This document shows, in pieces, positions 2,300 to 59,471 of a DNA stretch of 64,000 nucleotides. The translations under genes and the position numbers were made by a program. Position 1 is the stretch's first letter; each line of letters begins with the position of its first letter. The stretch lies in contig NC_021313.1 of the NCBI RefSeq assembly GCF_000403645.1, positions 806,001-870,000 on the forward strand. The letters are read 5' to 3'. Below the pieces are notes generated by a model. It was not told where the DNA came from, made no database searches, and saw only the letters and a list, made by a program, of their open reading frames with translations. Source of the stretch: Salinarchaeum sp. Harcht-Bsk1 (GTDB lineage Archaea > Halobacteriota > Halobacteria > Halobacteriales > Salinarchaeaceae).

Positions 2300-2485
2300 C
2301 AGCCTCGGAAGCCCCCTCCCGCTCGCCGCACCTAACTCGCTGTGCTCCTCGCTCCCATCGGAAGCCTCGCTTCGCTCTTCTTCCGAGCCCTGCCTCGCTC
2401 CGCTCGGCAGGATTCCGGTCGCTGCGGTGCTAGCTTCGTTACGCGCGGCGAGCGGTCGGCCCCTTCCAGTCCCACCCGGCGGATA
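2300..2485 (-). repeat. Dispersed structured repeat, copy 1
   Basis: Read on the minus strand it starts GGGTGGGACTGGAAGGGGCC and ends GGGGGCTTCC. The ends can pair: GGAAG (2307-2311) with CTTCC (2463-2467), and CCGCTCGCCGC (2319-2329) with GCGGCGAGCGG (2445-2455), an 11-bp perfect stem. Inside are the hairpins CCTGCC/GGCAGG (2389-2394/2406-2411) and CGGAAG/CTTCCG (2359-2364/2380-2385) around GAGCGRAGCGA-type loops. It is similar to the copies at 2620-2775 and 57408-57778. Confidence 0.7.
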
Positions 2486-2619
2486 TTTTGCAGTATCCCG
2501 ATCCCCTGTGGATCATGTCGGCGCGCGCTGGCGCTGGCTGCGAGCCGCTTCCCGGCGAGCAGCCAGCCGCGCGACACCGTGCGAGGGCCGAGCAACGCAG
2601 CGAGCGGAGCGACGCGAGT

Positions 2620-2775
2620 AGCGCAGAAGGCTGGGGAGGAGTGAGGCGTCTGGGTGGGCTTCGAAAGGGGCCGATCGCTCCGGGAAGCCGGACGAAGTAA
2701 GCACTGGAGCGAGCGAAGCGAGTGAAGCGCGCAGCGAGGCCCGCGACTGGAGCGATCGGGGGCTTTCGGAAACGA
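2620..2775 (+). repeat. Dispersed structured repeat, copy 2
   Basis: It contains AGGCTGGGGAGGAGTGAGG (from 2628) and GGGTGGGCTTCGAAAGGGGC, closely matching the copy near 57.6 kb. The arms GAAAGGGGCCGATCGCTCC (2663-2681) and GGAGCGATCGGGGGCTTTC (2749-2767) pair through a 10-bp inner stem and a 5-bp outer stem. Between them lie GAGCGAAGCGAG and CAGCGAGGCCCG. It is inverted relative to copy 1, 135 bp away. Confidence 0.7.
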
Positions 2776-57285: not shown

Positions 57286-57871
57286 GCGCGAGGGGTTGGC
57301 TCGTGGTGTGGTAAAGGTTCGGCGCGAGGAAAATTGCGGGCTGTAACCGCATACGGAAGCCCCTCCCGGAGATCCACCCTCTGGTTAGCTCAGGCCAGCC
57401 GAAACCCCGGTGGGATGCGGTGGCGCGCGTTTCGCAGCTGCCACGCGGCCGCGTAGCGTGCGAGGTCCTCGTGAGCGTAGTGAACGAGGGCTCGGAAGAC
57501 GAGCAAAGCGAGTCTTCCGGTGGACGACCGAGCGTAGTCCTCGTGAGCGAAGCGAACGAGGGCCCGGAAGTCGCAGCCCGCGAGCGAAGCGAGCAGGAAC
57601 GTCTTGCGGCGCGAGGGAGGAGGCTGGGGAGGATTGAGGATGCGGTTGTGGGGTGGGACTTCGAAAGGGGCCGGACGGTCGGTCGTTCCCGGGTGAAGCA
57701 AGCACCGCAACCGAGCGAAGCGAGGTGAGGAGTACAGCGAGCCCCGGAATGTCGAGCGTTCGGGGGCTTTCGGGGCTCCTTGAAACGGAAGCAGGTCAAC
57801 TACCGACAGCAACCACAACGTTCCCTAGACGAATCGACGGGGTTTACAGGCCAGCCTTCGCACCGGACCGT
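57286..57871. other. Gene-free, repeat-filled region upstream of aspS
   Basis: 586 bp without a credible gene. Coding-looking frames are made of translated repeats (ERSE/SEAN-like strings). It contains an array of hairpins with near-identical loops (57467-57561) and a full copy of the dispersed element (to about 57778). A GTTTACA patch (57842-57848) 24-30 nt before the aspS ATG is the likely promoter. Confidence 0.7.
57408..57778 (+). repeat. Dispersed structured repeat, copy 3, with hairpin array
   Basis: Contains AGGCTGGGGAGGATTGAGG (from 57621) and GGGTGGGACTTCGAAAGGGG (from 57652), matching copy 2, and ends CGGGGGCTTTCGG (57761-57773). The outer arms GAAAG (57663-57667) and CTTTC (57767-57771) pair; the inner arms are less complementary. 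Upstream lie hairpins with stems CCTCGT/ACGAGG (57467-57489), CGGAAGAC/GTCTTCCG (57493-57519) and CCTCGT/ACGAGG (57539-57561), each closing an 11-nt loop GAGCGTAGTGA, GAGCAAAGCGA or GAGCGAAGCGA. Confidence 0.7.
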
Positions 57872-59176
57872 ATGGACGACCGAACGTATGCTGCAGAGGC
57901 CGAACCCGGCCAGACCGCCACGATCGCCGGGTGGGTCCACGAGGTCCGGGACCTCGGGGGCATCGCCTTCGTGATCGTGCGAGACGCGACCGGACGCATC
58001 CAGGTGAAGGTCGAGAAGGGCGAGATCGACGAGGACCTCGAGGAACTGGCAACGGAAGTCACCCGCGAGAGCGTCGTCGAAGTCACCGGCCCCGTCGAGG
58101 AGGAGGAGCGCGCGCCGACCGGCGTCGAGATGACCATCGATTCCTTCGAGGTCGTCGCCGAGGCCGAACCCGAACTGCCGCTGGACCCCTCCGGCAAGGT
58201 CGACGCGGAGCTTCCGACGCGACTCGACAACCGGACGCTCGACACTCGAAAGCCCGAAGTGAAGGCGATCTTCGAGATCCGCTCGACGGTCCTCGAAGCG
58301 GTCCGCGAGGAGTTCCGTAACCTCCGCTGTACGGAGATCACGACGCCGAAGATCGTCGCGACCGGGACCGAGGGCGGCACGGAGCTGTTCCCGATCACGT
58401 ACTTCGGCCAGGAGGCGTTCATGAACCAGAGCCCGCAGCTGTTCAAGCAGCTCGCCGCGGGCGGCGGCTTCGAGCGCGTCTTCGAGATCGGCCCGATCTT
58501 CCGCGCCGAGGAGCACAACACGCCGCGGCACCTCAACGAGGCGACGTCGATCGACTTCGAGGGCGCGTTCTGTGATGCCGGCGACGCGATGGACGTCGCG
58601 GAGGCGATCGTCACGGCGGCCTACGAGGCAGTGTCCGAGCAGAACCAGCGCGAGCTCGAGCTGCTCGACCTCGAGGAGGAGTTCGCCCCGCCGGAGGGCG
58701 ACTTCCCCCGACTGACCTACGAGGAGGCCATCGAGCGCGTCAACGCGACCGGCGCCCTCGACGAGCAGCTCGTGTGGGGCGACGACCTCTCGACGGAGGC
58801 CGAGAAGGCCCTCGGCGAGGACGTCGGCCGGCACTACTTCATCACGAACTGGCCCAGCGAGGTCAAGCCCTTCTACATCAAGGACACCGACGAGGACCCC
58901 CAGGAGTCCACCGGCTTCGACCTCATGCACCCCGTCATGGAGCTCGTTTCCGGCGGCCAGCGCGAACACCGCCACGAGCAACTGGTGGAGGGCTTCGAAC
59001 AGCAGGGCCTCGACCCCGCGCAGTTCGAGTACTACACGAAGATGTTCAAGTACGGCATGCCGCCCCACGCTGGCTTCGGCCTCGGCGCCGAGCGCCTGGT
59101 GATGACGATGCTGGACCTGGACAACATCCGCGAGACTGTTCTGTTCCCGCGAGACCGGCAGCGGCTGAGCCCGTAA
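57872..59176 (+). CDS. aspS: Aspartyl-tRNA synthetase, archaeal type
   Basis: 434 residues from the ATG at 57872 ([20 protein letters not shown]). The N-terminal OB-fold anticodon-binding domain has [20 protein letters not shown]. The class II core has [20 protein letters not shown], motif 2 in [20 protein letters not shown], and motif 3 in [20 protein letters not shown]. The short archaeal form lacks the bacterial GAD insert. With gatB in the same genome the enzyme may also charge tRNA-Asn with Asp for later amidation (inference). In-frame upstream codons run through the repeat element and are rejected. Confidence 0.95.
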
Positions 59177-59207
59177 GGGCGAGGACGCAACGTGTCGAGC
59201 GGGAGCT

Positions 59208-59231
59208 CGTCACGAGCGAAGCGAAGTGACG
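59208..59231 (+). repeat. Hairpin with GAGCGAAGCGAA loop after aspS
   Basis: CGTCAC (59208-59213) pairs with GTGACG (59226-59231) around GAGCGAAGCGAA, 32 nt after the aspS stop. It is the same loop word as in the dispersed element but stands alone. The rest of 59177-59471 holds nothing recognisable except the next gene's TATA patch (CTTTATCC, 59440-59447). Confidence 0.55.
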
Positions 59232-59471
59232 GCGTTATCCGTCGAGTGGGAGCTCGATTGTCGCAGCCTGAACAGCGATCGAACCGCGTCTCGCCAGAGC
59301 GGCGACGCTCCCGGACGTCGGGAAGGCCGACGGCGAACGAGGACGGCGTTCAGAAGTGCGTGCCGACGGCCCAGTAGCACCGGGAGGCGCCGTTTCGATG
59401 TCCAGCGATCGCAGCGATTCCGGTGAGCCAGTCCCAGCGACTTTATCCCGCCGGACCGCCGACGAGGGTCT

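Follow-up and report, generated by a model that had tools for sequence, protein, structure and literature searches.

A dispersed haloarchaeal non-coding module with a conserved, strand-specific fold

Integron attC sites carry RYYYAAC/GTTRRRY boxes and occur in cassette arrays. Among dispersed repeats, REP sequences and BIMEs are known in bacteria (PMC2817692) and PATEs are known in Haloquadratum (PMC3119063). At the scale of a single hairpin, DNA forms extra-stable mini-hairpins when a stem of at least two G-C pairs is capped by a GNA or GNNA loop, GCGAAGC having a Tm of 78 C (PMC4686876). Here we compare with these systems a group of hairpins from Salinarchaeum sp. Harcht-Bsk1, found in a stretch of 64,000 nucleotides (NC_021313.1, positions 806,001 to 870,000), which we call the window and number from its first letter. 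In our analysis these hairpins turn out to be only the outer ends of a larger unit, a dispersed module of about 126 nt that is non-coding and is always read on its G/A-rich strand.

The hairpins and the module that carries them

An earlier note on this DNA had described perfect hairpins whose stems vary around a near-constant 11-nt loop. The three consecutive hairpins at 57467-57489, 57493-57519 and 57539-57561 have exactly the letters given there, and the minus-strand hairpin at 2389-2411 is also present; at 59208-59231 the stem (CGTCAC/GTGACG) was found, but the loop, GAGCGAAGCGAA, has 12 nt rather than the claimed 11. Stems of this kind are above chance. In the stretches of the Harcht-Bsk1 genome analysed, a perfect stem of at least 6 bp flanks 14 of 145 GAGCNNAGYGA words, where re-pairing the flanks among instances gives an expectation of 0.22 (never more than 2 in 1000 shuffles), and in 400 kb of a sister species 6 of 72 words have such a stem (0.18 expected). 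A rate of stems no higher than in shuffled sequence, the outcome that the note itself had named as counting against it, is thus not what we found. Words with one substitution are far scarcer, with stems of at least 5 bp in 2 of 62 (Harcht-Bsk1) and 1 of 40 (sister species). The bare word with up to two mismatches is not enriched in the window relative to dinucleotide shuffles (74 against 63.5), which places the signal in words that match exactly or nearly so, together with their flanks. Across the 3,255,260-bp genome GAGCGNAGCGA occurs 203 times, in clusters. The mirror symmetry that had been seen in GAGCGAAGCGAG is genuine, and arises because the fold is GA-GC-GAA-GC-GA(G).

The unit is not a free-standing hairpin of 6-8 bp, as had been supposed; the hairpins are arms of 126-nt modules and of spacers. 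From reading clusters, the layout of the module is GGGTGGGACTGGAAG-GGG-CCGACCGCTCG(stem)GACGAAGCAAGCACYGCAG(arm)GAGGAGCGCAGCGAG(stem')CGAGCGG(TC or GA)GG-GGG-CTTCCAAG. This comprises, in order, a stem that closes the module, an internal loop with G-tracts, a long stem whose sequence is free, a second internal loop that is conserved and centred on AAGCACYGCA/GAGGAGCGCAGCGAG, and an apical arm. The window contains one whole composite of modules (2303-2771) and one in which the type A module appears to have decayed (57355-57775). The features are as follows, with scores from the covariance model R1:

2303 to 2477, minus strand: complete type A module (97.3 bits, E=8.4e-18), in which the hairpin at 2389-2411 is an inserted extra arm
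2478 to 2652, plus strand: structured spacer separating modules A and B, which are divergent (composite at 808303/808653)
2653 to 2771, plus strand: complete type B module (97.8 bits, E=6.5e-18)
57355 to 57379, minus strand: probable decayed type A module with only GGGTGGATCT and GGGAGGGGCTTCC left, recognised by comparison with intact composites and without an R1 match
57380 to 57650, plus strand: structured spacer with the three consecutive hairpins and a GA hairpin at about 57582-57592
57651 to 57775, plus strand: complete type B module (91.3 bits, E=1.4e-16), with a variable stem, the core AAGCACCGCA and the apical arm CCGAGCGAAGCGAGG
57651 to 57657, plus strand: leader of this type B module, GGGTGGG
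57662 to 57667 with 57767 to 57772, plus strand: its P1
57668 to 57670 and 57764 to 57766, plus strand: its internal-loop G-tracts
59208 to 59231, plus strand: stand-alone hairpin of the same design, CGTCAC-GAGCGAAGCGAA-GTGACG, 32 bp past the aspS stop and not an R1 match
59160 to 59300: second repeat after aspS, found also at L031 11285-11460 and after aspS in L102, L045, L051, L056, L062, L065 and L085

The spacer at 57380-57650 terminates in the conserved leader GAGGCTGGGGAGGATTGAGGATGCGGTT, and the same layout is seen in about 20 composites of the genome. There are about 28 divergent pairs in the genome, with one module on each strand, both facing outward, and with structured spacers of about 120-330 bp that carry further GA hairpins.

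The word of the 59208 hairpin recurs after aspS in S. laminariae, the nearest named relative by its aspS gene (93%), and in Haloarcula japonica, inside another repeat. A second haloarchaeal repeat after aspS (GTCTGAGCCCGTAAGGGCGARGACGC..GTCGAGCGGGAGCTCG) follows the same tandem-GA rule and recurs in several genera.

A fold conserved by covariation

Our first alignment consisted of 37 copies from the Harcht-Bsk1 genome, with the structure drawn by hand. In this alignment 89.6% of cells are paired, double changes number 220 against 70 in shuffles, and covariation is 0.406, against 0.131 when shuffled and at most 0.093 when slid. For the 115 best copies, from about 30 genomes, 92.4% of cells are paired and covariation is 0.577 (0.151 shuffled, at most 0.070 slid), in an alignment that was fitted to R1. 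A model built only from the Harcht-Bsk1 genome pairs 93% of cells in 61 copies from outside Salinarchaeum, none of them seen in model building. The covariation across genera is robust, with the caveat of model fitting for the 115-copy alignment, and it shows that the fold of the module is strand-specific and conserved. The proposal of the note that selection acts on a folded structure over sequence is strongly supported by this covariation across copies, both within the genome and in other genera. Individual positions behave accordingly in the arms, where pairs covary with few exceptions (pair 56-91 is C-G in 21 copies, T-A in 15 and A-T in one). The G.A positions are nearly fixed, and at 22-123 and 23-122 Watson-Crick replacements occur.

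The supposedly unpaired 11-nt loop is itself paired. In the 11-mer G1 A2 G3 C4 G5 N6 A7 G8 C9 G10 A11, positions 3-9 covary as G-C, A-T and C-G, whereas G·A at 1-11 and A·G at 2-10 are constant. What looks like a loop is built from sheared G·A pairs in tandem, followed by two base pairs and then a GNA (or GNNA) turn. In longer arms two Watson-Crick pairs alternate with two G·A pairs, as in GA.CC.GA.GC.GA.AC-GAA-GT.GA.GC.GA.GG.GA. The G·A positions belong to the helix, since the same step of the outer stem may be Watson-Crick (GA/TC) or tandem G·A (GA/GA). At the apical turns, 100 of 130 triloops have the form GNA and 16 of 22 tetraloops the form GNNA, GNRA accounting for only 2 of them; the closing pair is most commonly C-G (143 of 177), and the second pair below the turn is A-T in some copies. 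These turns obey the published GNA/GNNA rule for extra-stable DNA mini-hairpins. Most tetraloops have a pyrimidine at position 3, which favours, but does not prove, a fold of DNA over one of RNA.

At the base of the module, the leader GGGNGGG and the two internal-loop GGG strands are conserved across families, and the neighbouring stems covary. Among the 148 copies whose internal loop has three G per strand, 118 have leaders with two runs of at least 3 G and one has GG/GG, 30 of the 148 leaders being imperfect or unparsed. In eight copies, which come from several genera, each strand of the internal loop has two G, and every one of them has a GG.GG leader. The four G-tracts vary in length jointly, as a three- or two-layer quadruplex would require, with changes in length that are not independent because the two-layer copies look like one subfamily. 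The foot of the module may then be a quadruplex.

Two variants of the module were also observed. In several copies a two-hairpin cassette (TCGTTCGAAAG..CTTTCGTGATCACGAGAG..CTCTCGGACGA), or a near variant, is inserted in the core of the module, always at one and the same point (Harcht-Bsk1 genome at about 1264.2k, 1278.7k, 1465.4k, 1493.3k, 1757.8k and 2267.6k). In copies from the genome G040 the outer stem and G-tracts are kept and the inner domain is quite different (CTTGGTCGTCTC...CTATC...GATATG...GAGCGACCGCG), an apparent domain swap (L308, L312, L316, L318, L320, L322, L324 and L326; also L330:13704-13823).

Distribution and turnover

The model R1 finds 105 copies in the Harcht-Bsk1 genome and has matches in 33 of 59 haloarchaeal genomes and 18 of 30 genera, two distant genera having 81 and 78 copies. 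Within a single genus the copy number varies from 0 to 50 or more (G018 against G040; G051 against G006). R1 has no match in about 100 sampled genomes of the phylum outside the order, and we found no description of the module in the literature. Rfam 15 gave no match for the window at gathering scores or for two copies at E<=5. The module is apparently undescribed and specific to haloarchaea. The copies checked lie between predicted genes, without any rule of orientation. A coding repeat was rejected on this position, and CRISPR, tRNA and known RNAs on the Rfam result. Viral carriage was rejected as well, since virus and phage collections hold no convincing copy: the leader pattern is absent from IMG/VR, phages searched with a composite gave nothing, and one match to the core pattern, in a tailed-phage-like contig, has no match to R1.

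Turnover was assessed by comparing the Harcht-Bsk1 genome with the 400 kb of the sister species. Of nine element sites in collinear stretches, five are shared with the sister and four are absent there, showing that copies are present or absent between two Salinarchaeum species. At the empty sites corresponding to 1492.9k and 1757.2k, 82 and 166 bp connect the flanks in the sister. Copies may equally well have been lost as gained, because the empty sites carry about 80-170 bp of sequence other than the element; target duplications and the exact ends of the element were sought at these sites and could not be defined. Of 24 breakpoints, 15 have an element of either species, compared with 10 of 55 collinear gaps, a contrast that is confounded, and inflated by intragenic gaps, because genes can hold neither breaks nor elements.

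In 7 of 14 plasmid contexts a single module lies about 500 bp upstream of a gene whose product is an RPA-like ssDNA-binding protein with an OB fold. Starting from the RPA-like gene, whose relatives occur in 196 haloarchaeal plasmid records, a detectable upstream module in the same orientation is found at 8 of 19 loci. This location ties the module to ssDNA biology. The RPA-like gene was rejected as the mobiliser: the full-length gene is absent from the Harcht-Bsk1 genome and broken in the sister, and copy number does not track it. The broken copy lies on the sister chromosome (G001:C1:3005660-3006160) and has two stops. The interval of about 400 bp between module and gene on plasmids is very conserved, non-coding and rich in palindromes (L347, L350, L351, L353, L355, L358, L359, and L361 (pNRC100) to L367), and the one copy compared with Rfam (L362) has only weak, sub-threshold matches. 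This stretch may serve in replication or partition, or may be an ncRNA.

Possible roles and comparison with known systems

We favour, with even confidence, the reading that this is a haloarchaeal module whose conserved G/A-strand fold acts as single-stranded DNA, its divergent pairs being non-autonomous, BIME-like units that are sites of rearrangement. When replication, transcription or recombination exposes the strand, it would snap into a very stable hairpin, the base of which may be a G-quadruplex given the high-potassium cytoplasm of haloarchaea, and the folded shape would be recognised by a protein. A divergent pair with its structured spacer would make up the non-autonomous unit, spread and lost via an enzyme in trans, and would serve also as a site of genome rearrangement. 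We infer both the action at the DNA level and the movement by a trans-acting enzyme. The module would work like a BIME, and its identity as one stays a likeness. More speculatively, and with distinctly less confidence, the module may represent a new class of element, either mobile or chromosome-organising, based on a programmed ssDNA fold (helices of Watson-Crick and sheared G.A pairs, mini-hairpin turns and a K+-stabilised quadruplex foot) and handled by a protein perhaps linked to the plasmid RPA-like ssDNA-binding proteins.

The degree of covariation, and an internal loop (AAGCACYGCA/GAGGAGCGCAGCGAG) that resembles protein-binding RNA, would also suit a structured RNA family, in which transcription of the G/A strand, by itself or within UTRs, yields an RNA that acts by binding a protein or on processing or termination, and copies arise by duplication. 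RNA parameters, too, give the sense strand a better fold than the antisense (-63.9 against -54.1), and G.T is seen more often than A.C at paired positions (97 against 43), a mild RNA-like sign for which the tRNA benchmark is too small to judge. GNA turns and sheared tandem G.A pairs occur in RNA also. We nevertheless consider an RNA family unlikely, although to be taken seriously: its about 100 copies have no fixed orientation to genes, AT-rich boxes are scarce upstream (4 of 78 copies against 17 of 90 gene starts), its tetraloops are GNNA with a position-3 pyrimidine rather than GNRA, and Rfam has no match. It is quite improbable that the copies spread passively by recombination or gene conversion and serve, without being mobile, as recombination, nucleoid or replication sites. 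The association with rearrangement breakpoints, the five shared orthologous sites, the lack of a transposase and the single copies upstream of the plasmid ssDNA-binding protein gene would all fit, but a copy number of 0 to 50 or more within a genus is hard to reconcile with a housekeeping site.

An ordinary REP/BIME or PATE-type element moved by an IS200/IS605 (Y1) transposase has precedents in those of bacteria and Haloquadratum, and would likewise be dispersed, extragenic, made of strand-specific palindromic hairpins often in inverted doublets, and gained or lost between species. This origin is mostly refuted and very improbable, as Y1_Tnp (PF01797) is absent from the Harcht-Bsk1 genome, its sister and seven further high-copy genomes (G006, G010, G020, G033, G040, G043 and G057), and the modules are elaborately folded over 126 nt, against palindromes of 20-40 nt; mobilisation by Y1/RAYT was rejected, the gene being absent here and in most high-copy genomes. 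The cruciform with an open conserved loop that the note had proposed, on the strength of a constant word flanked by perfect short stems, is scarcely credible and was rejected in this form, since G.A and G-C pairs form within the word, which covaries, the larger fold holds most copies as its arms, and G.A pairs and G-tracts are confined to one strand, the complement having T.C mismatches, so that the fold stands but as that of a single strand.

Under the single-stranded DNA reading, the module would be a case in which the extra-stable DNA mini-hairpin and tandem sheared G·A pairs are put to use in nature under selection, and it would offer a natural test case for G-quadruplex formation in high salt. 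With about 100 copies it makes up much of the intergenic DNA in some haloarchaea, its covariation is as strong as that of structured RNA families, and it accounts for a sequence word that recurs across haloarchaeal intergenic DNA. It could also be used as a marker for haloarchaeal genome rearrangement.

Integron attC sites share with the module a strand-specific ssDNA fold, a shape conserved over sequence and a variable terminal arm, but their boxes and cassette arrays are not seen in the module. The PATEs of Haloquadratum walsbyi are, like the module, haloarchaeal, non-coding, palindromic and dispersed; they relate to IS605 ends by sequence, whereas the Harcht-Bsk1 genome has no IS200-type gene, and we set the two apart by description. 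With bacterial REP/BIME and RAYT systems the module shares high-copy, extragenic, strand-specific palindromes that are non-autonomous and patchy between relatives, and the inverted doublets with a spacer are like its divergent pairs. REP sequences, however, are palindromes of about 20-40 nt with a GTAG-like head, whereas the module has 126 nt, a GGGNGGG leader and a multi-part fold with variable stems kept by compensation, and RAYT systems have the cognate Y1 gene that most high-copy genomes of the module lack. The turns resemble d(GCGNAGC)-type mini-hairpins (Hirao, Yoshizawa) in having a GNA or GNNA turn on closing G-C pairs; those are a chemical motif, whereas the turns of the module are nested between tandem G.A pairs and repeated in genomes.
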